Source of the DNA: a virus
DNA length: 26,618 bases
Strand: one strand, 5' to 3'
IMG/VR virus record: IMGVR_UViG_3300036852_000036
Span: 1 to 26,618 of that record
Shown: piece by piece, positions 1 through 26,618 of the stretch
How the letters are laid out: each line of letters begins with the position of its first letter
How positions within the stretch are numbered: the stretch's first letter is position 1
The notes under the pieces: generated by a model
Databases searched by the model: none
Seen by the model: the letters and a program-made list of their open reading frames with translations, nothing else
Told to the model about the DNA's origin: nothing
Program-made: the position numbers and the translations under genes

Positions 1-129
1 GATGAGACTGACCAGCGGCTGCGCGAGGCTCTAATCAAAAGAGGGGTGAAGCTGTATGATGCCCAACCGATCGACGCGGGCACTTTCGAACTTGGCCAAC
101 ATCCGTCAGAGCAAAGAGGACAAAGTTAA
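1..129 (+). CDS. 3' end of an unidentified plus-strand gene (partial)
   Basis: The first 42 codons of the window read open on the plus strand and end with TAA at 127-129. That stop overlaps the ATG of the next gene as TAATG, which suggests the two are co-transcribed and translationally coupled. The visible C-terminus is hydrophilic, begins DETDQRLREALIKRG and ends in a Gln/Ser-rich tail. I recognise no domain in it, and the start lies outside the window. Support is the open frame, the stop-start overlap and the sharing of strand with the two genes that follow. The product is unknown. Confidence 0.6.
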   Translation, partial: DETDQRLREALIKRGVKLYDAQPIDAGTFELGQHPSEQRGQS

Positions 130-731
130 TGATAGCAGGCCATGAGGCACCGTGCCCGAAGTGTGGAGCGCCAACGGGCGGAGCGTGTCATTCCGCAAGC
201 GGCCGCGGCGTTCCCCCGCATAAAGAACGGCTAGACCTTGCCGGAACTCCTCATCGAAGCAAAGGAAAAAGCGCCTGTCAGAAGTGGCTAGAAGATCACG
301 CGGGCTATGACAGGGATGATTGTCTGATCTGGCCGTTCTCTGACACTAGAGGATATGGGCATTTTAAGTGCAACGGCGTGAGATTCTACGCCCATCGCTA
401 TATGTGCACGCTTATCCATGGGGAGCCGCCATCGGACAAGCATCAAGCTTCTCACTCTTGCGGTAAGGGCCACGAGAAATGCGTCCACCCGCGCCACATC
501 TCATGGAAGACGCCATCTGGCAACCAACTCGACCGCCGCTTTCACGGGACGACGAAGCGCAACAAATATGGGCCGATGGGAAGGATTACGATAGCTCAAG
601 CTGAGGAAATGAGGCGGTTAAGCTTGCACAAAACTCAAGACGAGTTGGCTGGGATGTTCGACACCTCTAGAGGCAATGTCCAGTTCATTTTGAACGGTCA
701 AACTAAACGGACGGGCCAAACACCGTCCTGA
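129..731 (+). CDS. zinc-ribbon / HNH endonuclease / HTH protein
   Basis: This 200-aa protein appears to be a site-specific DNA endonuclease with three parts. Residues 8-35 form a small zinc-ribbon-like motif (C9, C12, C20, H31) of a kind seen in phage proteins. Residues about 60-140 resemble the HNH_3 fold: H89 in a YAHRYMC context, then H109-C111, C118, H120, P121, H123, W126, N132 and D135. Residues about 152-190 look like a helix-turn-helix (ITIAQAEEMRRL..., TQDELAGMF..., SRGNVQFIL), which would give the enzyme target selection. The start is the ATG overlapping the upstream TAA; an AGAGG motif lies about 9 nt before it. Free-standing HNH proteins of this kind in phages are usually homing-type nucleases or packaging aids. 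Which applies here cannot be told from sequence. It lies on the strand opposite the structural genes. Confidence 0.75.
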   Translation: MIAGHEAPCPKCGAPTGGACHSASGRGVPPHKERLDLAGTPHRSKGKSACQKWLEDHAGYDRDDCLIWPFSDTRGYGHFKCNGVRFYAHRYMCTLIHGEPPSDKHQASHSCGKGHEKCVHPRHISWKTPSGNQLDRRFHGTTKRNKYGPMGRITIAQAEEMRRLSLHKTQDELAGMFDTSRGNVQFILNGQTKRTGQTPS

Positions 732-2095: not shown

Positions 2096-3511
2096 CTATG
2101 GTGTATACGTAATTACGATGATGCCCTGAGCGCCGGCGGCACCAGCGCTACCGGCGGTAGTCGCCACACTGCCGCCACCGCCTCCCCCTCCGCCTCCGTA
2201 AAGACCGCCGGGTCCACCCGCTCCAGGACTTGCTGAGACACCGCTTGGAGAGCCACCGCCACCGCCGCCCGCACCGTGGGTAGCGTCCCATTCTTTGCCA
2301 GCGCCACCCGTGCCGCCAACATGCGCGGTATTATCTGAGCCGCCTCCGCCTCCGCCTCCGCCGGGGCCACTAGCCCCAGTTCCTGCAGTTGGCGTTGAAC
2401 CAGATGCGCCTGAACTCGCTCCGCCCGCACCACCTGATGTGCCATCGCTGCCTGCACCGCCAGCACCGCCCGTGCCGCCGCTCGGTGCAGAGCCCGCGGT
2501 CGCGCTACCCGCTCCCGCACCGCCACCGCCGCCACCGGCTCCGCCCGCCGCCGATGGACCACCTGCTCGACCAACTCCGCTTGGAGCGCCAGCACCGCCG
2601 CCGGCCGCCGACGCGCGATTGCCGCCAGCATTGGAGCCACCAGCACCACCGCTATTCTTGGTTGTTCCGATTCCGGATGCAGAATCTCCGCCGGCACCGC
2701 CTGTACCGCCGGTGCCGCCTGCACCGCCCCACAACCCTTTAACACCGCCCTTTGCACCAACAGATGATGCAGCGAGCGAAGCACCATTAAACCATGTGTC
2801 ACCGCCGTCTACGCCATCCGCCTGATAAGCACCTGCCGTGCCAGCAGCACCTATTTGAATTGTAGCGCTACCACTCGGAGTAAGTGTCAGATTGGTAATT
2901 TTTGAATACGCGCCACCACCACCGCCGCCGCCGCCAAGGTTTCCGTTGGCACCGCCACCGCCGCCCGATCCGCCGCCGCCGCCGCCAATGACTTCGATTG
3001 TGTTGTTGGCGCTGTTCCAGTCCGCAGGGACAGACCACGACGTTCCGCTAGTCAGGAAGATAACTTGCGTGCCACCGCCTGCACCGCTGTAAGTCAGCGT
3101 CACCGCTTGACCGGTCAGGGTGAGGGCCCCGACGTCAGAGGCAATATTGCGATTGTAAAGCAAGCCAGCTGCTACGCCCGTTTCGGTAAACGCCCCAACA
3201 TCAGCAACCAGACTATAGTTGTGCACTGGTGCCATATCGGAGCCATTAAGCGCGAATGTGCCAGTGTTGGCAGCTATGGTCTTAGATCCAGATGGCGCAG
3301 TTAGACCAACATCTTGGCCCGTGAGAGTGAAGGCCCCGACAGCAGCGGCCAAGGCAAGCCGGCTGTACACCAGGCCAGCGTCATCCCCCGTAAGAGTGAA
3401 GGTGCCTTTTGAGGCCGTGATGACTCCAGGGATGATAGGGTCGCCGACCTTCCCGCCGCTGCCCAACCGACCGAACCCGCGCCCTAGCTCTCCCAACCGA
3501 CCAAATGCCAT
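2096..3511 (-). CDS. glycine-rich phage tail fibre-like protein
   Basis: A 471-aa structural protein. Residues 1-30 are Gly/Arg-rich. Residues 36-139 hold five imperfect repeats of 22-25 residues, each with a core like GAFTLTGQDVGL (starting near residues 36, 59, 84, 106 and 128). Residues 148-245 resemble the glycine-rich tail domain: VIFLTSGTSWSVP, then an EVIGGGGGG turn and a GDTWFNG element. Residues 250-460 are extremely Gly/Ala/Ser-rich, and the protein ends with a beta-strand (GIIVITYTP). This layout is common in adhesin-like tail proteins of alphaproteobacterial phages, where the glycine-rich sandwich carries the host-binding surface. Its place between a small virion protein and an SGNH-like protein fits a tail-tip role. 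The GGN-rich coding produces long proline-rich frames on the other strand, which are artefacts. Confidence 0.75.
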   Translation of the reverse strand: MAFGRLGELGRGFGRLGSGGKVGDPIIPGVITASKGTFTLTGDDAGLVYSRLALAAAVGAFTLTGQDVGLTAPSGSKTIAANTGTFALNGSDMAPVHNYSLVADVGAFTETGVAAGLLYNRNIASDVGALTLTGQAVTLTYSGAGGGTQVIFLTSGTSWSVPADWNSANNTIEVIGGGGGGSGGGGGANGNLGGGGGGGGAYSKITNLTLTPSGSATIQIGAAGTAGAYQADGVDGGDTWFNGASLAASSVGAKGGVKGLWGGAGGTGGTGGAGGDSASGIGTTKNSGGAGGSNAGGNRASAAGGGAGAPSGVGRAGGPSAAGGAGGGGGGAGAGSATAGSAPSGGTGGAGGAGSDGTSGGAGGASSGASGSTPTAGTGASGPGGGGGGGGSDNTAHVGGTGGAGKEWDATHGAGGGGGGSPSGVSASPGAGGPGGLYGGGGGGGGGSVATTAGSAGAAGAQGIIVITYTP

Positions 3512-3514
3512 GGC

Positions 3515-3922
3515 TTAGGCGATCGTCAGAACGCCATTGGTGCCGTCAAAATCTATAGTGAACGTTTCACCGTTCGCCATGGTGACGGCAGAGCCATAGT
3601 CCCACCAACCGATCAACTCCTTATTGGTCGCCGTATCGTTGTAGAGCACGACATAACGGAAAGTGGCGACCGCGCCCGAGGCTGTCAGAACAAGATCTGT
3701 CAGCGTCAACTTATAGGTGCCTGATGATTGCGCCGACGCGGAAGTGGTGACGGTGCGGGCAGAGAGGTTCGTGTAGCTGATTTCAGTGATGTTCGACAGT
3801 TGCGTGTTGGTATTGACCGGCACCGTATTCGTTAGCGCTATCTTGAGAGAGTCCGAGCCCAGATTATGGACCTTCTCGGCCACGGCCTCGACAAACGAGT
3901 TGAACTTGTTGAATGTAGCCAC
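3515..3922 (-). CDS. small phage virion protein (hypothetical structural)
   Basis: A 135-aa beta-rich protein starting MATFNKFNSFVEAVAEKVHNLGSD, an N-terminus I associate with a widespread family of small phage structural proteins of unknown role. The rest alternates Thr/Ser strands with an FRYVVLYND segment and ends in GTNGVLTIA, typical of decoration or tail-associated proteins. The start is GTG at 3922, preceded by a good GGAAAGGA site about 8 nt upstream. It is the first gene after the terminator at 3949-3972, so it opens the final tail block and needs readthrough or its own promoter. Confidence 0.65.
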   Translation of the reverse strand: MATFNKFNSFVEAVAEKVHNLGSDSLKIALTNTVPVNTNTQLSNITEISYTNLSARTVTTSASAQSSGTYKLTLTDLVLTASGAVATFRYVVLYNDTATNKELIGWWDYGSAVTMANGETFTIDFDGTNGVLTIA

Positions 3923-4278: not shown

Positions 4279-4439
4279 ATTACGTTCCCGCCGGACGATC
4301 CGAACATCCAATCATCCATTTCGCATTCATCCATGAAGTCAAATTCTTCGGCATCAATCATGAACGGACGGCGCCTATTGCGGCGATGGGATGGAGAGCG
4401 GGGCCTCTTCCGTCGAAACTCGCGCCCCCTGCAAACCAT
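4275..4439 (-). CDS. 54-aa charge-segregated microprotein
   Basis: A short frame that exactly fills the gap between two recognisable genes. Its ATG overlaps the endonuclease stop as TGATG and its TGA overlaps the DUF4406 ATG as ATGA. A GGGGTG element lies just before the start. Residues 1-26 are strongly basic (MVCRGREFRRKRPRS, then HRRNRRRPF). Residues 27-46 are strongly acidic and Met-rich (MIDAEEFDFMDE, then MDDWMF). I recognise no family. The basic half could bind nucleic acid and the acidic half could mimic DNA or bind a partner, but this is speculation. Support is the double overlap and the sharp charge split. An internal ATG at 4361 could give a 28-aa acidic version. Confidence 0.6.
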   Translation of the reverse strand: MVCRGREFRRKRPRSPSHRRNRRRPFMIDAEEFDFMDECEMDDWMFGSSGGNVI

Positions 4440-4984
4440 CAGTCACCCCGTAAGTATTTCCAGACGACTTCCCATTGCTCGGGGGTCTCCCCGAGAATGC
4501 CGATCGAGATATTGCAAGGTGTGCAGAGCAGACCGCGAACGCGCCCCGTAGAATGACAATGATCGACCGCAAGCTTGCCGTGTTTGCCGACACGGCCGGG
4601 AACCTTACAGATAGCGCAGACGCCGCCCTGTGAGGCATACATCGCGTCCCAGTCTGCTTGGGTCATCCCGTATTTGCGTTCGAGGTGTCGTTTCTTCGAG
4701 TAGGCAGCCTTTTTCGCCTTGTACTCGTCCGACATCTCTCGATACGGCTTTTTAGGATAGGCTTTGATTTTGTCTTGGTTGTTCTTTACCCAAGACCTCG
4801 CATACGCAAGCCGCTTCTCCCTGTTCCGAGATACCCAATCCATCGCGTCGGCGGTATGACACGTCTTGCAACGAGAGCGCTCTTTACCGCGCTGAAGGGG
4901 GAAATCTGAACGAGGTTTGGATGATTTGCACTTGCTACAAATCTTGGTTTCGCAAGCCAAACGGTATAAAAGCTCTGTAGCCAT
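4439..4984 (-). CDS. endonuclease VII-type HNH nuclease
   Basis: A 181-aa protein with two parts. The N-terminal zinc-finger region has C16-C19 and C39-C42, followed by a Lys/Arg-rich helical linker (residues 50-105). The C-terminal recombination endonuclease VII fold has C123-C126, the catalytic-region DHCH (D141-H144) and C154-C157 followed by N158. T4 endonuclease VII resolves branched DNA before packaging; phage relatives of this size are either resolvases or free-standing HNH nucleases. I chose ATG 4984 because GGAGG lies about 6 nt upstream; the TTG at 4999 is less likely. Its stop overlaps the next microprotein's start. No dedicated Holliday junction resolvase is seen elsewhere in the window, so it may fill that role. 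Confidence 0.85.
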   Translation of the reverse strand: MATELLYRLACETKICSKCKSSKPRSDFPLQRGKERSRCKTCHTADAMDWVSRNREKRLAYARSWVKNNQDKIKAYPKKPYREMSDEYKAKKAAYSKKRHLERKYGMTQADWDAMYASQGGVCAICKVPGRVGKHGKLAVDHCHSTGRVRGLLCTPCNISIGILGETPEQWEVVWKYLRGD

Positions 4985-5050
4985 TCTAGCCTCCGACAAG
5001 GTTGGTCTGGTCAGAAGCGGCGCGCTGTTACCAGCAACGCGCTGCTTCGC

Positions 5051-17522: not shown

Positions 17523-18659
17523 TCAATCGGTCGCCGACGCGAAGAAGCCCGTCGCCATGCCGAACTGAACGAGGTTCGAGCCGGACGCGGGATGCTTCTT
17601 GAAGATCTTCGAGACGCCGTAAGCCATCTCGATGCCGGTGCCGGTGATGAAGCCGTAGTCATCTTCCTTGCGGAAGGTGGGCTTCGCCATCTGGCCCCAG
17701 CACATCGCCGCCGCCTGCTGACCGCACAGGAACACGGGCTCGACACGGGCGGACGAAGCGCCAGCCGTCTTGAGGGTCGTCCAGACGTTGGTCACGAAGG
17801 ACGAGATTTCGGGCACCTGCCGGATGATCACGCCGTCGTAGATCTGGTCGCCATCCTGGAACAGCGGGTTCTTGTCCACGCCGTTCTGCTCACGAGGCCG
17901 CGCATCCTTGTTGATCGTCTCAAGAGACGCCTTGAGATCGCGGAACGTGTTGGAGCCGGCGAACGCAACATAATACTCATAACCGTTGGAGGTCTTGAAC
18001 GGCCGAATCTTCGGGCTCGCATTCATGGCAATACGCTTCAGCAATGCGAGGTTCGGAGCGGTCGCCTTGTCGTTGGTGGTATCAACGTTGGCAAGCGCGG
18101 TTGCGTGGGTCGCGTTGTAGTTGGCAGTCGAGTTGCCGTACAGCACACGATCCGAGTTGGCCGCGTTCCAGGTATTGCGCTGGGCAGCGGTCGCCAGATC
18201 GTACTGGATGCCGTTGACGCGAACGCCGGTCGAGGGCAACGTTTCGGAAGGCAGCGCCATCAAGGCAGCGATCAGCTCGTCGCGCTGAAGCTCCTTGCCC
18301 CAGTCAGACAGCAGCGGCTTTGCTTCGCCGAAGATGTCCGCCGAGTCCTTCTGGCTTTCTGCCTTGGTCGTGGTGACGGCGTGGCGAGCCCAATCGAGGC
18401 GAACGCGCATGCCGTAGTTTTCGATCTGCTCCTCATTGCCAACGAGTGTGCCGGTCGAAACGCCAGCGCCGGTCAGGCGGGTGACGATCGGGAGGTTCAT
18501 TTCCTCGCCGCCGGCCTTCAGCTCGTTCTTGATGCGGATGATCGAATTGAGAGCGGTGCCCATGTAGGGCGAGAAGAGATTGCCACGAACGTATTCGCGG
18601 TTGATCTCCTGGGTATATTTAACCAACTTGTTGTTGGCCTGGATGGTAGTGACAGCCAT
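17523..18659 (-). CDS. major capsid protein (N4 gp56 / Phage_capsid_3 type)
   Basis: A 378-aa protein with an opening I recognise from this capsid family: TTIQANNKLVKYTQEINREY, then NLFSPYMGTALNSIIRIKNELKAGGEEMNLPIV, GTLVGNEEQIENYGMRVRLDWARHAV and KDSADIFGEAKPLLSDWGKE. The C-terminus has RVEPVFLCGQQAAAMCWGQ and GIEMAYGVSKIFKK. These proteins have an HK97-type fold and build the icosahedral shell. The length fits the family. It lies after the scaffold gene, separated by a terminator. The GAAAGG site is about 9 nt before ATG 18659. A 482-aa frame on the opposite strand is an artefact. Confidence 0.85.
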   Translation of the reverse strand: MAVTTIQANNKLVKYTQEINREYVRGNLFSPYMGTALNSIIRIKNELKAGGEEMNLPIVTRLTGAGVSTGTLVGNEEQIENYGMRVRLDWARHAVTTTKAESQKDSADIFGEAKPLLSDWGKELQRDELIAALMALPSETLPSTGVRVNGIQYDLATAAQRNTWNAANSDRVLYGNSTANYNATHATALANVDTTNDKATAPNLALLKRIAMNASPKIRPFKTSNGYEYYVAFAGSNTFRDLKASLETINKDARPREQNGVDKNPLFQDGDQIYDGVIIRQVPEISSFVTNVWTTLKTAGASSARVEPVFLCGQQAAAMCWGQMAKPTFRKEDDYGFITGTGIEMAYGVSKIFKKHPASGSNLVQFGMATGFFASATD

Positions 18660-19701: not shown

Positions 19702-19998
19702 TTAGGTATTCGTGATGGCCGCGATCTTGTAGGCAGGCGGGACGGCAAACGTTAGGATGTTGCCCGCCTCAACGCGGAAGTTCGTCGTTGCCGCAGTTGG
19801 ATTGGTGGATACAAGATACGAGAAGATGCCATCACAGGTAATGGTGATGAACTTGGTCTTGGCGTTGAATGCTGCCGACTGAGCCGACGTGCCGCTCACC
19901 GTGACAGTCTGCTCGATCGGGGCGGGTTCTGCCCAAATCTGGGGGTTGCCCGAGATAATCGGCATTGTCTCGTGTTCTTTGATCCAAAGCGTGCTCAT
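19702..19998 (-). CDS. small phage structural protein (hypothetical, 98 aa)
   Basis: A 98-aa protein starting with ATG 19998, which overlaps the portal stop as ATGA. It reads as a small beta-sandwich (TVTVSGTSAQSAAFNAKTKFITITCDGIFSYLVST, NFRVEAGNILTFAVPPAYKIAAITNT). I recognise the pattern as typical of small proteins placed after the portal gene in alphaproteobacterial podoviruses, with no defined role. A 117-bp space with no clear signal separates it from the scaffold gene. Confidence 0.6.
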   Translation of the reverse strand: MSTLWIKEHETMPIISGNPQIWAEPAPIEQTVTVSGTSAQSAAFNAKTKFITITCDGIFSYLVSTNPTAATTNFRVEAGNILTFAVPPAYKIAAITNT

Positions 19999-22028
19999 GC
20001 GTTAGCCTTCTGTTTCGCTGCAATCTTGCGATCCGCGTCTCTGTCCTTGATGCCCTGCTGGAAGTTCGCCCGAGCCAGCTCGGCCTCTTCAGCCGCCTTC
20101 TGCGGTGCCAATTCAGCCTCAACCGTAGTCTTGTGGGCCGCAGCATCCTTCTGCCGGGCGCTGGCGTGCTTCTCGACAATCTCAGCGACAGCCTGCGCGA
20201 TCTGCACTTCCATCGGGAGTTCGTCAGGCTGCGGCTGTTGCGGTGCGCCTATCTCAGGCGTTGCGGCTTCCTGCGCCTTGGCCAAATTGAGCGCGACCTT
20301 GGACTTGGTTTCGTCTACCTTCGCAGCCTCGCCCGCCAATGCGATTTGCTTGGCCTGCTCTGCCATCGGATCGGGCTTTTGCTCGGAAGCTTCGCGGAAC
20401 TGCTTCTTAGCCGACTCCGGCAATGCCGAGGTCTGGATCAGTACCTTGACCGCGGCCTGTGCCTGCGGCGGGGTCAGCATCGGGGCGACCGATGGCAGAA
20501 CCTGCGTCAGCGTCTCGTAAACGTCTGCCTGCGCGTTGACCGTATCCGGTCCCTCATCCAGGATGATATCCACGTCCAGAGAACCCAGCGCGTTGACCAT
20601 CGTCGGGTAGCCCGTATTCGGATCTACTCCAACTCCGTTGATCTGGATGAATTGGGCTAAGCCTTCGTCATCCGTCACACGGATATATCGTTCGGCCTGC
20701 CAGTATTTCTGAACTGCATTGAAGATCGCGCGATAAACCCGCACCTTCCAGCCACGATAGCCCAGGATATACGGCCCAAGCTCAGCCATTCCGGCTTGCT
20801 GAAGCAACTGAATGGCGCGGCCCGATTGATTCTGGATGTCGCCGATCAGAGCCTGGTTAGGCCCGTAATTGTCCAGTTCCATCTTGTCTTCTTCGAGGAG
20901 CTTGGCCCAGCCAGCGAAGTCGAAGGTCCGGTCATCGGCCTTGATGCCATCGTTGACATTGCCGTTGATCAGCACAACGCCGTCATCTCTGGCCCATTCG
21001 GTTCGGGCCTTCTCCACATCCTGCACGCTGCCCTGGCTCATAATCAGCCGGCGCGAGGCAAGGATATGGTTCAGCTTGGAATGCTTGAAATTGAACGAGT
21101 CCTGCGAGGACTTCATGTGCCGCACGAAGCCATAACGATCTCCGTCATGGTCAACGTTGCAGGAGAACATGATGTACTTGCAGGTGCCCTTGTTCTTCTC
21201 GTCAACAAGGTAGGATTCGCCTTCCATCAGGATCACCGACCCCGTGAAGATCGCCCAGCACCATGTGCCCTTGTGCTTGTACCAAACGTCAACGAGCCGA
21301 ACGAGCTTCTTTGCCCCGTCAAACGAAAACCACTTTTGCTCGCGGTCTGGATTGGAGCTTAGCTCGCTGCCATCCTCGGCAAGCCCGCTGATCTGATCCG
21401 CCTTGTCGGGAAACATCTCCTTCGCGGCGTCGATCTCGACCCACTTGCCTTGGCCCATATAGCTGGCGTCAGAGAAGTCAGCCCGGTAAGACCGGGGATC
21501 ATAGAAGAACGAGTCAGGCTCAACGATATCGAACCCAACCTCAGGGTCGCCGTGATCGCCCTCCTCGATCTCGATCTCAAGGCCGCCAATGCCGTCTACA
21601 GCCCCGTCACGGGCGCACTCAGGAGACTTTGCCTTCCACTCCTGCTCGTCCAGCACATAGCGCAGAACCGCCGTAGCAAGCTCTGCGCCCTGTTCCTGCT
21701 GGGGTGTGCGGGGATAAGCCTTCGGATCTTGCCGTAGACGCTCAATGAGACCAATCGTGCCATCGATCTTGCGGGCAATGCGGTTCTTGGTCGATGGCGG
21801 CTGCCGACGCTTCTTGAGGGTCTTGAGCTGGTCCGCAGTCCACTGCGCGCCGTGGTAATACCGTCGCGCTTCCTTCTGCTCCTCGATTTCAGCGGTCTTA
21901 TTGCCGAGGTAATCCAGATACGCCTTCTTGCAACGCGAAAGGGGCCAGTAGTCATCGCCCTTCTTGTCGTTGCTGACGCCGCCATAGGTGGATACCGAGC
22001 CGCCTATGGCATATCCGGTATCACTCAA
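19995..22028 (-). CDS. portal protein (P22-like)
   Basis: A 677-aa portal of P22 type. It opens with SRCKKAYLDYLGNKTAEIEEQKEARRYYHGAQW, an N-terminal helical region common in P22-like portals, followed by RQPPSTKNRIARKIDGTIGLIERLRQDPKAYPR. The middle has VGFDIVEPDSFFYDPRSYRADFSDASYMGQGKW and NQSGRAIQLLQQAGMAELGPY. The C-terminal 150 residues are a long Ala/Gln/Glu-rich helix (QIAQAVAEIVEKHASARQKD), like the extended barrel of P22 gp1. The dodecameric portal is the DNA gate and connects to terminase and gp4. The start appears to be TTG at 22028, overlapping the terminase TGA as TTGA; no ATG exists near the N-terminus. Confidence 0.85.
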   Translation of the reverse strand: MSDTGYAIGGSVSTYGGVSNDKKGDDYWPLSRCKKAYLDYLGNKTAEIEEQKEARRYYHGAQWTADQLKTLKKRRQPPSTKNRIARKIDGTIGLIERLRQDPKAYPRTPQQEQGAELATAVLRYVLDEQEWKAKSPECARDGAVDGIGGLEIEIEEGDHGDPEVGFDIVEPDSFFYDPRSYRADFSDASYMGQGKWVEIDAAKEMFPDKADQISGLAEDGSELSSNPDREQKWFSFDGAKKLVRLVDVWYKHKGTWCWAIFTGSVILMEGESYLVDEKNKGTCKYIMFSCNVDHDGDRYGFVRHMKSSQDSFNFKHSKLNHILASRRLIMSQGSVQDVEKARTEWARDDGVVLINGNVNDGIKADDRTFDFAGWAKLLEEDKMELDNYGPNQALIGDIQNQSGRAIQLLQQAGMAELGPYILGYRGWKVRVYRAIFNAVQKYWQAERYIRVTDDEGLAQFIQINGVGVDPNTGYPTMVNALGSLDVDIILDEGPDTVNAQADVYETLTQVLPSVAPMLTPPQAQAAVKVLIQTSALPESAKKQFREASEQKPDPMAEQAKQIALAGEAAKVDETKSKVALNLAKAQEAATPEIGAPQQPQPDELPMEVQIAQAVAEIVEKHASARQKDAAAHKTTVEAELAPQKAAEEAELARANFQQGIKDRDADRKIAAKQKANA

Positions 22029-23470
22029 TAGGATATCCAGTCATTGTCAGCGGTTTCCGATTCATAGGTGCGATAGCCCGAGGGGTTCTTGATCTCTGCG
22101 GGCTCGATAACTTTTGCCCACGGCCGCGACATGCAGGCGTAGCGCCAATCGTCCGCAGCGTGGTCTTCCATGTCCGTGTTCAAGTCTTCCGGCTTGGCTT
22201 CATCATGTTGCAGCGCCGGTATCGTCCGAATGCTGTCAACGCAGGTGGAAAAACATGCAATCATCGGATTGCCATCAGCATCGCCGACCATCCGAGACCG
22301 CATTTGATCCCAGCCACCCATCGCGCCCTTACCAGGCACACGCTTGTTGTCTGCGCGCCGGAATATAACCTTGTTGCCAGAGCCCCGCATAATCCGCTCA
22401 TGGATCGATGGGCCGCCGTCCTCACTGAATGCTGAGGGGTCCAGAACGCCATAGGACAGCGCCGGGTCGTTCTTCTCGCGCTCCCAGATGCCTTGCCCAA
22501 CCTGCTCGGCAGTGAGCTTCAGGCCCGTATTGGGCTTGCCTGGCTGCATGCCATACCATTCGCTGTATCTCACCAAACAGCCGCGCGGCAGCGTTACGCC
22601 ATCCTGCGTCTTCGGATCATCAACGATGGCCCACCAGCCGAACGAGAACGGACTCGCCGAGCCCCAATCTCCCGATCGGAATCGTGTCCACTCTTTCGGT
22701 ATCGTGAAAGGTCTGACGATATGACGCTTGCTGTCCCAGCAATCGAAGAACGCGCCGTCGATAACCGACCAATCGCCCTCCAGCCACGCTTTAACGAGTT
22801 GCTCAGAGCCCGACGCCTTGAGCTGCTGGACGTAGCTCTCACCCAGGTATTTGTTATCGTTCACCCGCGACGGGATATAAACCCGCTCCAACCCGCTCAA
22901 TGGATCTTTAAAGACGCGATAGCCCAAGGGAGCAGGATCAATATATCTAGCGCGCACCCATTGATGACCGGGACCGCCCGGATTGCCGGTAGCCCTAAAT
23001 CCAACAGGCACACCCGCTCCGCTTCGGAGAGTTGCCATGAGCTTGAGGATTGGCTTGTCGCTTGGGAAGTTGCCAATTTCCTCAACGTAGAGCCGCGTGT
23101 AACTGTGGCCCTGGTATGCTTCTGCATCCGCATCCCTCTCTAGGTAGGCGAACCGAAGCCGAGCCCCGTCAGGCGCTCGCCACATCTTGTCCTGTTCGTG
23201 GTAGGTCCAGCCAAGCGGGGTATAAATCGCCCTGCTTCGCTCGATCGTCTCAATCAATTCAGTCCGCTGCCGGCGGATCATCAGGCCGATGGCATTCTTG
23301 CCATACAGGCTGGCGTGACGAATGAAGTCGCCTAGAACCCCATCTGTCTTGCCGCCGCCTCGTGCGCCCCCGAAGAAAACCTCAAAGACCGGGCAACTGA
23401 TAAGGGCGCGCTGTGGTCCTGTCTGCGCCGACCAAACTACTGAATAGTCTGCGCGTGCTGTTGCTGCCAT
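22025..23470 (-). CDS. terL: terminase large subunit
   Basis: A 481-aa packaging motor. The ATPase half holds Walker A (GGARGGGKT, residues 34-42), a Walker B-like LYVEE (127-131) and a coupling motif TGNPGG (161-166). The nuclease half has GDWG (D268) and LDPSAF (D344) as expected metal-binding acidic residues, and a late acidic DMEDHAADDWRYA. This is the usual TerL plan: ATP-driven translocation into the portal and cutting of the concatemer. ATG 23470 lies inside the TerS gene's last 34 bp. Packaging strategy (headful or cos) cannot be read from the window; no cos or pac site is recognised. Confidence 0.9.
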   Translation of the reverse strand: MAATARADYSVVWSAQTGPQRALISCPVFEVFFGGARGGGKTDGVLGDFIRHASLYGKNAIGLMIRRQRTELIETIERSRAIYTPLGWTYHEQDKMWRAPDGARLRFAYLERDADAEAYQGHSYTRLYVEEIGNFPSDKPILKLMATLRSGAGVPVGFRATGNPGGPGHQWVRARYIDPAPLGYRVFKDPLSGLERVYIPSRVNDNKYLGESYVQQLKASGSEQLVKAWLEGDWSVIDGAFFDCWDSKRHIVRPFTIPKEWTRFRSGDWGSASPFSFGWWAIVDDPKTQDGVTLPRGCLVRYSEWYGMQPGKPNTGLKLTAEQVGQGIWEREKNDPALSYGVLDPSAFSEDGGPSIHERIMRGSGNKVIFRRADNKRVPGKGAMGGWDQMRSRMVGDADGNPMIACFSTCVDSIRTIPALQHDEAKPEDLNTDMEDHAADDWRYACMSRPWAKVIEPAEIKNPSGYRTYESETADNDWISY

Positions 23471-23745
23471 TGCTCGGTCGTCGCCGCTACTTCCGGCACA
23501 TCTGCAACATAGCGGTGAACAACCTCTGTCTTGTTATCGCTCGCGCTTAAATCAGGCAGAACCTTGCGCAATAGAATGCCCGCTGCGGTAACCTGTGCAG
23601 GTTCTAGCGTAATTGAGCCTTCGACAAAGGAAATCAAACGGTTAGTAATTTGGCTGGCTTGGATCTTTTGGCGGGTATTGTCTTCCCAATCCATGCCCAA
23701 AACTGAACCGCCGCGCTGTTTGCGCTTTGCTCTATCTGCGCCCAT
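23437..23745 (-). CDS. terS: terminase small subunit
   Basis: A 102-aa protein with the N-terminal basic stretch (ADRAKRKQRGG), a helical core (WEDNTRQKIQASQITNRLISFVEG) and the motif LEPAQVTAAGILLRKVLPDLSAS, which I associate with small terminase subunits of Rhizobiales phages. The C-terminus (TEQWQQQHAQTIQ) would dock TerL. TerS binds the packaging start site. It directly precedes and overlaps TerL. Its ATG overlaps the upstream stop as TAATG. The call rests on motif and position. Confidence 0.8.
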   Translation of the reverse strand: MGADRAKRKQRGGSVLGMDWEDNTRQKIQASQITNRLISFVEGSITLEPAQVTAAGILLRKVLPDLSASDNKTEVVHRYVADVPEVAATTEQWQQQHAQTIQ

Positions 23746-23933
23746 TAGTCCAAGTCCGGTCCGAAGTTCTGCTTCTGGTAGATGCCGCGCAGCCGTGAGT
23801 TTTGCATCGCAACCATCTGATCTTCATATTGAACGGGGGCAGCCTTCTTCTCGCTCTTCACAAACCCGCGCCATTCGTGCGCTGTGCCCGCGTAGGGCCA
23901 TTCAGGATGGGCGAGCGACTTAAGCTGGGTCAT
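23745..23933 (-). CDS. small hypothetical protein upstream of TerS
   Basis: A 62-aa protein beginning MTQLKSLAHPEWPYAGTAHE, basic in the middle (FVKSEKKAAPV) and ending QNSRLRGIYQKQNFGPDLD. No family recognised. ATG 23933 sits 14 nt inside the preceding gene's 3' end, and the stop overlaps the TerS start as TAATG. The longer frame beginning with TTG 23978 is less likely because it would run further inside the upstream gene. Confidence 0.6.
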   Translation of the reverse strand: MTQLKSLAHPEWPYAGTAHEWRGFVKSEKKAAPVQYEDQMVAMQNSRLRGIYQKQNFGPDLD

Positions 23934-24093
23934 AGTCGGTCGCCGCTTGATAAGGCCAACCAGCCGCGTACTCGCCAAAAGTCTTGGGCTCTTTCACTGG
24001 TGCACTGCTTCCAGTCAAAGCTAGTTGGCGATCGGCCTCGATCTCCTTGAGGCGCTGGGCAATGGCTTGCGTGTCGTCCGCTGCGTAGCTCAT
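23920..24093 (-). CDS. 57-aa hypothetical protein
   Basis: A short gene starting ATG 24093, which overlaps the previous stop as ATGA, and ending TAA 23920. It begins MSYAADDTQAIAQRLKEIEA and ends FGEYAAGWPYQAATDYDPA: an amphipathic helix and an aromatic tail. No family is recognised. Support is the overlap at both ends within a continuous chain of overlapping genes. A 107-aa frame on the same strand (23930-24253) in a different phase conflicts and looks non-coding. Confidence 0.6.
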   Translation of the reverse strand: MSYAADDTQAIAQRLKEIEADRQLALTGSSAPVKEPKTFGEYAAGWPYQAATDYDPA

Positions 24094-24572
24094 TCCGGCC
24101 CCCCATTCGTGAACTCTGCAAACTCCTGAAGCGCGTCAGCAACCTCAGATTTGAGCTTGGCCTTGACATTATCGACCGTCGTCTTGATGTCGCTTGCAGC
24201 CTGCACCGTCGCGGCCTTAACATCAGCCACGCCTTGGCTTTGAAGGCTGCCAATCTCGGTCTTCATCTCTTCCAGCATCGCCTTGAAGGCGCCGGATTTT
24301 AATCCCGTGATGCTCATCTTGGGTTTCTCGGTTATCTGCCTGATCTTGTTGATTTCTGTCGCAATCTGCTCGTCAGTCGCCAGCGCGCCGATTGTAATCT
24401 CTTGGCCTTCCACGTTTATAATCTGGAAATGGCCCATGTATCGGATAGTCAGGTCAGGAGCGTTGAACTTTGCTCTCAGCTCCGTCTGCCTGCCCACTCG
24501 GTGTTTCCAGTTCTCGTCGATGACCGCGTTGGATAGGCTGTCGGCAATTCCATCAAGAACGCTTGGGTTCAT
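24090..24572 (-). CDS. hypothetical helical protein of the packaging operon (160 aa)
   Basis: A 160-aa protein with ATG 24572 (in-frame alternative 24611, inside the zinc-ribbon gene). The N-terminal part (DGIADSLSNAVIDENWKHRVGRQTELRAKF) leads to strands (TIRYMGHFQIINVEGQEITIG). A long C-terminal helix (residues 105-155) is rich in Ala, Lys and Val with coiled-coil heptads (EEMKTEIGSLQSQGVADVKAA, TTVDNVKAKLKSEVADALQEF). The function is unknown. Place and coiled coil suggest DNA-packaging or head-assembly help, but this is inference. Confidence 0.65.
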   Translation of the reverse strand: MNPSVLDGIADSLSNAVIDENWKHRVGRQTELRAKFNAPDLTIRYMGHFQIINVEGQEITIGALATDEQIATEINKIRQITEKPKMSITGLKSGAFKAMLEEMKTEIGSLQSQGVADVKAATVQAASDIKTTVDNVKAKLKSEVADALQEFAEFTNGGPE

Positions 24573-24690
24573 CTGCCTGTTTGCGCTGCTCGCATTTGGC
24601 GCAATGGCCATTCGTCAAGCCACGCATCATCTCGTGACATTCCGGACATTCGTAAAGTACCGGCTTTCCGGTTCTGAGATTTAGTGTCAT
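24553..24690 (-). CDS. 45-aa zinc-ribbon microprotein
   Basis: A short gene with ATG 24690, overlapping the upstream stop as ATGA, and TGA at 24553. It has two CxxC pairs (C14-C17 in YECPECHEM and C30-C33 in HCAKCEQ), which would form one zinc ribbon. No family is assigned. Zinc ribbons this small in phages usually bind nucleic acid or a host protein. The overlap with neighbours and the spaced cysteines support it as a real gene. Confidence 0.7.
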   Translation of the reverse strand: MTLNLRTGKPVLYECPECHEMMRGLTNGHCAKCEQRKQADEPKRS

Positions 24691-24845
24691 GCAGGCTCTT
24701 TCCCCAGATCCATCCCGTCGATGCCCTTGCCCCCATACGGCACCTCAGCCAGGATCTTCGCCGCTTCCTTCTCTAGCTCTCGCTGCATGCGCTCGATGTC
24801 TTTCTTGGACTGATAATCGCGCATTTGGTAAACGACTGCGGACAT
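24687..24845 (-). CDS. 52-aa hypothetical protein, first gene of the packaging operon
   Basis: It starts at ATG 24845 with GGAGG 4 nt upstream, a strong ribosome site, and ends in TGA overlapping the zinc-ribbon start as ATGA. It begins MSAVVYQMRDYQSKKDIERM, has a charged helix (RELEKEAAKILAEV) and ends GKGIDGMDLGKEPA. No family is recognised. It is the first gene after the terminator at 24958-24987, so it opens the late operon. Confidence 0.7.
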   Translation of the reverse strand: MSAVVYQMRDYQSKKDIERMQRELEKEAAKILAEVPYGGKGIDGMDLGKEPA

Positions 24846-24957
24846 TCATCCTCCAAAAGGGTTTCGGGCAGCACCAGGCTATGCGGACTCGGCGCACGTA
24901 ATCGGCGCATCGCAGGGGGAGTAGTCTCGCGGTTTGCTCTTAGTGCCGCCCGAACGG

Positions 24958-24987
24958 AAAAACCCGCCAAGGATTTCTCCCGGCGGG
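24958..24987 (-). terminator. intrinsic terminator upstream of the packaging operon
   Basis: On the minus strand CCCGCC and GGCGGG pair across a 13-nt loop, followed by TTTTT. It lies 60 bp past the 183-aa gene's stop and about 110 bp before the first packaging gene. The large loop weakens it slightly. Transcripts crossing it must be antiterminated or start further downstream. Confidence 0.7.
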
Positions 24988-25011
24988 CTTATAATTCTTG
25001 CGACGATGGGC

Positions 25012-25040
25012 ATTTACCCCTGATTTGCTGGTCCTGTCAA
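25012..25040 (-). promoter_or_regulatory. candidate late promoter
   Basis: A consensus TTGACA -35 sits at 25040-25035 (minus). A 17-nt spacer leads to GTAAAT, which matches TATAAT at only 3 of 6 positions. The -35 and spacing are good and the -10 is poor. Its transcript would run straight into the terminator at 24987-24958. Confidence 0.3.
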
Positions 25041-25046
25041 GTACCC

Positions 25047-25598
25047 CTACCGGGTATGGGTGGCAAAGCCGTAGACTAGTGCCATACAGTCAAGGCATTC
25101 TTGAAAGCGAAGCCCATAGTACTTCTCCCAACGCTCCCCGATCAGCCCCCGCGCCGAGGCCACCTGTTTCCGGGTCTGATTATGGACCAGCACAGCATGA
25201 ACAATTGCCGAGCCATCCTGACCGAGCGCCCGATAGATGATCGCCAGTTGCCTTGCAGCCCGCCTCTGGGCCTCGGTGATAGGTTCTGGCATCAAGCCGC
25301 CATCCACGGCCTCTTTGCTCGGATCAATCGCCCTAGGCCCCCTCTCGGCCGTTTCAAAGTCATTCTGAAACGCCCTCCCCGATTGATACTGCGCTTCATC
25401 GATCATGTGCCGCGCGTGAAGGTCTGCCAGTGGATCATCTCGGGTTGATCGCATCACAATGATCTTCCCGCCCTGCTCATAGGGATCATCCACTTCCTTT
25501 GGCGTGAGATAGTTTTCTACCCCTCGATTGGAATCTGAAGCCCGTCGATCGTGCACGTTCTTCAGGTCGTTCGGCTGTCGGCGTCTCGTTCTTGCCAC
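25047..25598 (-). CDS. DUF6456-like putative regulatory protein
   Basis: A 183-aa protein. Residues 1-40 are basic and likely disordered. Residues 50-85 (RSTRDDPLADLHARHMIDEAQYQSGRAF) and 105-175 (ITEAQRRAARQLAIIYRALGQDG, then QTRKQVASARGLIGERWEKYYGLRFQECL) resemble DUF6456 proteins, which carry an HTH-like helix and occur in alphaproteobacterial phages and cells. It probably binds DNA. The start is GTG at 25598, 32 bp past the replication gene's stop. Its place immediately before a possible terminated late promoter is where lambdoid phages keep their Q antiterminator, but I see no sequence match to Q. The family call is moderate, the function inferred. Confidence 0.55.
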   Translation of the reverse strand: MARTRRRQPNDLKNVHDRRASDSNRGVENYLTPKEVDDPYEQGGKIIVMRSTRDDPLADLHARHMIDEAQYQSGRAFQNDFETAERGPRAIDPSKEAVDGGLMPEPITEAQRRAARQLAIIYRALGQDGSAIVHAVLVHNQTRKQVASARGLIGERWEKYYGLRFQECLDCMALVYGFATHTR

Positions 25599-25630
25599 TG
25601 TGATGCCCCGGTGTGATGTAGTTGGACGCG

Positions 25631-26467
25631 TTACATAGCTCGAAGGGCTGGCGGCCGATCAGGCTCACCAGTCGGAACTACTATCCCGTGCTTTGCCAGG
25701 ATCTCGGGCGGACAGCGGCAGCTACCAGAATCCGGTGAGTTGCCACCCTGCTTCGACCAATGCCCGAATTTCTTGTAGCTCGCGCAAATGGCTTCCCAGT
25801 CAACCGCGGTGGGGTTGGCAATCTCGAACGTCTGCCGCGGCGGGGCCTTGCTGGCGTGCGCTTCCTTGATGGCGTTGTCGAAGTAGTTGAGCGTCGTGAT
25901 CGACGGCCTCTTACGGACGATCTCGGAGATTACTGCGAGGCAGATATCCTCCTGGTAACCCTGGGTCAGCCAGAGCTCGGCGCGTGACGTCTCGATCATC
26001 GTCGGAGAGTTGGCCGCCTCGAATGCTTTCACGATTGCTTGCCGGAAATCTCCTACCCGCTTTTGCAAATCAGAGCGCGCGTCTGTTCTGCTCTGTTTCT
26101 GTTCTGTCTCTGCTTCTGGGGGCGTTACTGTAACGGCCTCTGTAACGTTACGCTTGCGTTCCCTGTGACGTTTCACTCGCTCATTTGAAACGTCACTCTT
26201 GAATTGCCTGCCGTCCCAATTATGCGGAACGAAACGGCCGTCCACCAAGTCGAGAAGTCCAGCGTTTTTTAACCCGGCGATGATGGCCGCCGCCGCAGCC
26301 GGCTTGACACGAAGAGAGATAGCCACGTCGTCGGTTGCGGGGATAACTCCATCATTCTTTGAGGCAATGCAGAGCATGGCTATCCAATGCCAGCGCGTGG
26401 CCTCTGGAAGCTTCAGAATCTTGGGATCATTAATGGCGTCGTCGTAGACCCGGAACCAGCGGCTCAT
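25631..26467 (-). CDS. phage replication protein (winged-helix, O-like)
   Basis: A 278-aa protein starting MSRWFRVYDDAINDPKILKL, the usual beginning of a Rhizobiales phage replication protein. Residues 1-100 look like a winged helix (RWHWIAMLCIASKNDGVIP, DVAISLRVKPAAAAAIIAGL, FVPHNW). A basic linker (residues 90-110, RVKRHRERKRN) and a helical C-terminal half follow (SRAELWLTQGYQEDICLAVISEIVRK), with a final Cys/Pro-rich tail. It probably binds the origin and recruits the host helicase. No origin iterons are obvious inside the gene. ATG 26467 overlaps the upstream stop as ATGA. Confidence 0.7.
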   Translation of the reverse strand: MSRWFRVYDDAINDPKILKLPEATRWHWIAMLCIASKNDGVIPATDDVAISLRVKPAAAAAIIAGLKNAGLLDLVDGRFVPHNWDGRQFKSDVSNERVKRHRERKRNVTEAVTVTPPEAETEQKQSRTDARSDLQKRVGDFRQAIVKAFEAANSPTMIETSRAELWLTQGYQEDICLAVISEIVRKRPSITTLNYFDNAIKEAHASKAPPRQTFEIANPTAVDWEAICASYKKFGHWSKQGGNSPDSGSCRCPPEILAKHGIVVPTGEPDRPPALRAM

Positions 26468-26618
26468 GCAAACTCACCGTTCCGGGCCCGCTCCTCGAAA
26501 TGTTCGTAGGTGTCCACCTCGACTTCTATGGCCTCGATCCCCTGGTCTATGTCCATATTGAACCATTCACCGCTAGTCCTTACGGCTCTGTGGTCGGTGT
26601 GGATGGCCTTTTCGTGCA
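26464..26618 (-). CDS. 3' end of a GIY-YIG/MUG113-like gene (partial)
   Basis: The last 155 bp read open on the minus strand and end in TGA at 26464, overlapping the replication gene's ATG as ATGA. The visible 50 residues (HEKAIHTDHRAVRTSGEWF, then DIDQGIEAIEVEVDTYEHFE) match the C-terminal part of GIY-YIG/T5orf172/MUG113-type proteins, where a conserved His and GEWF follow the catalytic core. The catalytic GIY-YIG residues lie outside the window, so activity cannot be judged. Confidence 0.55.
   Translation of the reverse strand, partial: HEKAIHTDHRAVRTSGEWFNMDIDQGIEAIEVEVDTYEHFEERARNGEFA

Follow-up and report, generated by a model that had tools for sequence, protein, structure and literature searches.

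The locus considered here raises the question of how a phage controls its packaging and structural genes when a promoter, a short leader and a terminator stand between them and the preceding gene for a 183-aa protein. The window, that is, the whole stretch of DNA that was analysed, comprises 26,618 nt of the IMG/VR record IMGVR_UViG_3300036852_000036. A sequence-only reading had proposed the architecture of lambda pR'-tR', with the 183-aa gene in the place of Q. Both the gene order and the promoter, leader and terminator were confirmed, and they are conserved. Judged from sequence and by analogy with characterised systems, a Q-type late switch run by a protein of the GafZ family is very probably the best explanation for this region of what would be a phage of a soil bacterium. 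The features are as follows.

25631..26467, minus strand: replication initiation gene, upstream (phrog_3926, E 3.8e-17)
25047..25598, minus strand: DUF6456/GafZ-family gene, 183 aa, GTG start, proposed late antiterminator
25035..25040, minus strand: -35 element TTGACA (sequence; TTGAC kept in alignment A6)
25018..25034, minus strand: promoter spacer GGACCAGCAAATCAGGG, putative antiterminator loading element (conserved in relatives)
25011..25017, minus strand: weak -10, GTAAAT or TAAATG (sequence and alignment A6)
24997..25008, minus strand: conserved leader start CATCGTCGCAAG (alignment A6)
24958..24988, minus strand: intrinsic terminator with GC stem, GAAA loop and T5 (fold energy and z-score)
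24858..24957, minus strand: conserved structured RNA with four helices and a C-rich loop (covariation in alignment A4; model R1)
24687..24845, minus strand: first late ORF, 52 aa, behind GGAGG at 24854-24850 (translation)
23437..23745, minus strand: small ORF in the place of the terminase small subunit (position only)
22025..23470, minus strand: terminase large subunit (Terminase_6N, E 1.2e-5; phrog_2, E 2.4e-30)
19995..22028, minus strand: P22-like portal protein (P22_portal, E 5.6e-101)
17523..18659, minus strand: major capsid protein (Phage_capsid_3, E 2.2e-49)

The order is thus replication gene, DUF6456 gene, switch, small genes, terminase, portal and capsid. The place corresponding to that of the replication gene is held by a DUF1376 gene in the Bradyrhizobium phage relative L014. 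No family match was obtained for the small ORF at 23437..23745 in Pfam and PHROG profile searches. Farther away in the window, Cys/His patterns of HNH-type endonucleases were read by eye at 129-731 (plus strand, opposite to the late operon) and 4439-4999 (minus strand), and 2096-3511 (minus strand) encodes a 471-aa product, probably a tail or fibre protein, whose second half is very rich in glycine.

The consensus TTGACA claimed at 25040-25035 was present when the minus-strand sequence was checked, and it starts 6 bp past the stop codon of the 183-aa gene, which ends at 25047. The -10 described as weak can be read as GTAAAT (25017-25012), which gives a 17-bp spacer, or as TAAATG (25016-25011), which gives 18 bp. 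Transcription is predicted to start near A25007, so that the leader would be about 50 nt long; the first estimate was about 45 nt. Its conserved start, CATCGTCGCAAG, is a possible promoter-proximal pause. The terminator itself was placed correctly: the hairpin GCCCGCC-GGGA-GAAA-TCCT-T-GGCGGG occupies 24988-24963, TTTTT follows at 24962-24958, and the hairpin by itself folds with -20.3 kcal/mol (z -4.4 against shuffles). From these sequences we infer promoter and terminator activity for the module. A simple promoter and terminator scan found no sigma-70 sites in 23500-26618. It also passed over the late-switch promoter, because the -10 is weak, and the hairpin, because the loop limit of the scan was 8; these are limits of the patterns and not absence. 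The interval 24957-24850, described earlier as 110 bp without a promoter, likewise yielded no sigma-70 site, but it is occupied by a conserved structured RNA and is not plain sequence. TTGACA occurs nine times in the window against 10.9 expected. Since the motif is not enriched, conservation in relatives is the test of its significance.

Relatives were collected by protein searches, first 12 and then 56 viral ones; a Bradyrhizobium lablabi prophage and Bradyrhizobium phage ppBeUSDA76-2 were further relatives. A pattern-limited contig scan with the protein alignment A1 gave a single relative, and a whole-genome search gave many. We built a nucleotide profile of an 87-nt unit (TTGAC -35, conserved spacer, -10, leader start CATCGTCGCAAG, GC hairpin and T-run) from 17 loci and ran it over all loci. 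The unit was matched in 38 of the 56 distinct loci (E<=0.05), 21 of these matches lying outside the profile, and the profile search gave no significant element in the other 18. All 38 matches are on the sense strand and lie -60 to +1300 nt from the stop of the DUF6456-like gene. With the same profile, the unit was found at no other place in 614 kb, and 411 kb of viral DNA from unrelated loci had none either, the best E there being 0.94. A terminator-like hairpin is present in 24 of the 38 elements, compared with 12 of 200 random windows; in some relatives the terminator is shifted by inserted sequence. TTGAC, spacer and leader start are kept in dozens of relatives, including those with 200-1200 bp between gene and element.

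The search was also run in reverse. The pattern TTGACNNGNCCNGCAAATCA, applied to 2.9 million viral contigs, returned 21 stretches, ten of which contain the leader and are full elements; a DUF6456 gene lies upstream in all ten. The remaining 11, without the leader, look like chance matches. The short leader motif TCGCAAGTGATTTGC was set aside as a search pattern, its 56 stretches being mostly matches by chance. The promoter-leader-terminator unit is conserved at this place, and its occurrence there exceeds chance.

Between -35 and -10, GGTCC[AG]GCAAATCA is kept in many or most relatives. A different spacer (TTGACAGTAAAACCAAATCA; AGTAAAACCAAATCA) was found in two phages, L138 and L154, both with the same divergent type of DUF6456 protein; the two loci were reached via the leader. 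The DUF6456 protein of L138 is divergent (PF20057, E 0.0012). L154 has no DUF6456 gene near the switch; a gene of the L138 type was predicted, and the search of the remaining contig then found it elsewhere (L169; 79% identity to the L138 type, E 2e-101). The profile of the common DUF6456 type had no match on the rest of that contig. In the small sample of L138 and L154, spacer type and protein type go together. The spacer is a putative loading element, by analogy with the GafZ ZBE and the lambda QBE, which occupy the same place. Over 42 relatives its dyad symmetry reaches significance (Fisher p 9e-8, uncorrected for the relatedness of the sequences), but the window copy shows no clear sign of it (p 0.97), and a spacer palindrome was therefore set aside as a defining mark.

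Other details of these loci were noted. In L038, L039, L049, L103 and L116 the spacer motif GCAAATCAC recurs in the leader as its reverse complement, GTGATTTGC, so that the start site sits inside an inverted repeat. Where phages lack GCAAATCA in the spacer, their leader frequently still has TGATTTGC. At L154 55-1227 (minus strand), genes on the opposite strand lie directly upstream of the switch, one of them for an antitoxin-like HTH protein. By eye, tRNA-like sequences were seen directly downstream of the switch at L040 ~2320-2400 and L138 ~3500-3600.

The 183-aa protein had been called DUF6456-like, and profile searches agree. The window protein alone scored 23.3 bits against Pfam DUF6456 (PF20057; E 7.6e-5), below the gathering cut-off of 26.3. 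The same family was matched by all 13 aligned relatives (A1; best 4.8e-7), and profile-profile comparison (hhalign) with GafA-type DUF6456 domains gave 98% probability and E 1.7e-13 over 121 columns. These profiles show the protein to be a homolog of the DUF6456 domain in GafA and GafZ, which regulate gene transfer agents; it represents the GafZ family in a phage and is no orphan. As regards sequence, the proposed lack of kinship with known Q families is borne out, in that the Pfam search of the window protein gave no PF06530 (Q21) at E 0.1 and no PF03589 (lambda Q), and the protein profile gave no Q21 at E 10 among PDB sequences. The proposal has to be amended in two respects, the homology to GafZ and GafA and a predicted fold whose best match is Q21. 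KorA-like matches covered the HTH alone and were set aside. In the literature that we searched, no phage protein with DUF6456 is described as regulating late genes. The architecture had been proposed without knowledge of the GafZ homology, and the two are therefore independent lines of evidence.

An AlphaFold2 model of the window protein was made from 46 relatives (mean pLDDT 77; confident core approximately 61-85 and 109-178). In Foldseek, Q21 took ranks 1 and 2 of 350,542 chains with E values of 0.27 and 0.43, which are not significant. VIA also ranked Q21 at the top, with Z 8.6 (113 residues) and 8.1 (92 residues, 2.8 A), and for a second model, of the distant relative L057, Q21 formed the top four VIA rows (best Z 9.2). 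Over all Q21 entries the window model gave Z 6.9-8.6 and the L057 model Z 8.0-9.2; values of 8-9 are close to what helical domains commonly reach, and a sigma-region-4-like HTH supplies part of the similarity. The VIA list of the window model also holds the AlpA loading complex (Z 6.5) and sigma region 4. With the L057 model, Q21 was not among the best 50 Foldseek matches listed. The structural alignment with Q21 spans residues ~60-180 at 7% identity. The models suggest that the fold is probably Q21-like with a sigma-4-like HTH, which is not proof. For GafZ itself, an earlier AlphaFold analysis reported no likeness to Q21 (PMC11150451).

The structured RNA lies between the leader terminator and the first late gene and is about 100 nt long, in the window as well as in L015-L071. 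In alignment A4 (18 sequences), 93.9% of cells were paired and 16 of 24 pairs had changes on both sides. The covariation score was 0.440 against 0.154 in shuffles, none of 500 reaching 0.440, and it fell to 0.03-0.07 when the structure was slid. Model R1 recovered the window copy at E 1.2e-13 and found one sense copy in each of 21 loci, three of them outside the model. Rfam had no match for the leader or for the structured RNA. Because it stands behind the terminator, this RNA would be part of transcripts from the late-switch promoter only after readthrough. Candidate roles are aid to the modified polymerase, RNA protection and translation control; a pairing of the C-rich loop with a ribosome-binding site is no more than a guess.

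A close DUF6456 homolog was found in 113 of 118 Bradyrhizobium genomes, nearly always in single copy. In B. lablabi (L072 714-1917) the chromosomal gene follows and overlaps the gene of the GcrA cell-cycle regulator (PF07750, E 1e-31). No switch element was seen beside the chromosomal DUF6456 gene in the loci examined. The profile of the promoter-leader part did find clusters of copies downstream, on the same strand as the gene. These copies read TTGACACGTCGGGCAAATCA..CATCATCGCA..AGCCCGCGCGGAGAAATCCGCCGCGGGCTTTTT, and in one genome four of them follow at 166-bp spacing. Near-identical promoter-leader-terminator clusters are present in L224 (13691-17830), L225 and L226, from genomes G001, G200 and G232, where they sit 10-70 kb downstream of the chromosomal DUF6456 gene. 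A terminase large subunit stands behind the cluster in four genomes; one of them has an intact gene, the other three have genes that are shortened, interrupted or fragmentary. Rfam searches of the chromosomal arrays gave weak matches, all below the gathering score. The clusters resemble a late switch that has been domesticated or is decaying while its regulator has been kept. Behind some clusters a further folded RNA, also with a C-rich loop, was read by eye. The idea that Bradyrhizobium are ordinary RcGTA hosts was dropped, the PF04860 portal being found in one of 8 and the P22 portal in none of 12 genomes tested.

In the mechanism that we propose, a sigma-70 promoter behind the DUF6456 gene would give a transcript of about 50 nt that is stopped at the intrinsic terminator. 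The DUF6456 protein, made from the early operon, would bind the promoter spacer and join RNA polymerase close to the promoter, possibly while the enzyme pauses in CATCGTCGCAAG. The modified polymerase would then pass the leader terminator and later ones into the packaging, head and tail genes, and the readthrough RNA would open with the folded element of ~100 nt, followed by the first late gene. Spacer loading, readthrough and late-gene control by the protein are suggested by the homology to GafZ and by the architecture. The near-consensus -35, together with the lack of any other promoter found before the late genes, fits antitermination.

The protein might act instead as an activator of this promoter, as has been proposed for GafA via omega, with a terminator that is leaky or incidental. 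The weak -10 would suit such a role, GafA binds both omega and the promoter DNA around -10/-35 (PMC9638019), and a reporter without the terminator was also about 4-fold lower upon GafZ loss (PMC11150451). A near-consensus -35, however, should scarcely require an activator, a conserved terminator hairpin directly past the start is left unexplained by simple activation, and omega was not pulled down by GafZ in Caulobacter (PMC11150451). We consider activation unlikely.

That the terminator merely ends the early operon, behind a TTGACA that arose by chance so close to the stop codon, would agree with the lack of enrichment in the window. It is scarcely credible given the retention of TTGAC, spacer and leader start in relatives where the element lies far from the gene. 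The unit could also be a small regulatory RNA of ~50 nt, the late genes being transcribed from elsewhere. Promoter, short conserved transcript and terminator do make a complete sRNA gene, and tandem copies occur in Bradyrhizobium chromosomes, such as the four in one genome; yet the scan found no other promoter before the late genes, a DUF6456 gene precedes the full elements in viral contigs, and spacer and protein types vary together. A small RNA as the whole explanation is very unlikely. Lambda pR' likewise makes a short RNA, so sRNA and antitermination may both hold.

Within the antitermination reading, a wider proposal is possible, which we put forward tentatively and would not yet favour as a whole. 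Phage DUF6456 proteins would form a new class of Q, with a Q21-like fold common to GafZ and GafA, which would themselves derive from a phage late antiterminator; the new structured RNA beyond the terminator would be part of antitermination or late control; and Bradyrhizobium chromosomes would keep a domesticated version of the whole switch. A DUF6456 switch would assign a function to two families listed as unknown, phrog_21451 and phrog_16492, and would tie the gene transfer agent regulators GafZ and GafA to phage late-gene control. It would be a compact natural antitermination system, with protein, site, leader and terminator in less than 700 bp, and the locus points to an undescribed structured RNA. 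GafA as an antiterminator, a point left open in PMC11150451, becomes testable.

Several known systems resemble this switch in part. The window shares its architecture and genome place with lambda Q and pR'-tR'; in the Pfam search its protein has no sequence similarity to lambda Q, and the leader is about 50 nt long, whereas that of lambda pR' is about 190 nt. Q21 is a late regulator with its site in the promoter, a short leader and a terminator. The phage system has the same layout and a predicted fold that matches Q21 (best Z 8.6-9.2, close to what is usual among helical domains), although sequence similarity to Q21 is not detectable. AlpA of Pseudomonas aeruginosa is a cellular regulator, a Q-like antiterminator that loads in the promoter; its loading complex matched the window model in VIA (Z 6.5), with no match in sequence. 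A 2025 paper in eLife, cited in PMC13236601, reportedly deals with antitermination in the Bartonella gene transfer agent.

The homologs of GafA are annotated as DUF6456 (PMC9638019). GafA of Rhodobacter capsulatus has a C-terminal DUF6456 region and regulates a phage-like late cluster, as would the window protein, but it has a fused N-terminal DNA-binding part and is described as an omega-dependent activator (PMC9638019). GafZ of Caulobacter crescentus, homologous to the C-terminal domain of GafA, is an experimentally shown antiterminator: it loads between -35 and -10, travels over the cluster with RNAP and NusA/G/E, and permits readthrough of its own terminator and of rrnB T1 (PMC11150451). 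The GafYZ system of the Caulobacter gene transfer agent and the window have in common the DUF6456 domain, an element between -35 and -10 that is putative in the phage, and a packaging and structural operon with structural genes behind the terminator, their control in the phage being presumed. In Caulobacter the -35 is degenerate and requires GafY, and the terminator lies behind the first gene, whereas the phage has the near-consensus TTGACA and a terminator ~20 nt past the start. No GafY was identified beside the DUF6456 gene, where the upstream neighbour is the replication gene; the window covers a part of the phage. A near-consensus -35 freed the Caulobacter promoter from dependence on GafYZ (PMC11150451). 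Unlike Caulobacter GafZ, the DUF6456 gene described here adjoins its own site, and the element that carries it is a phage.
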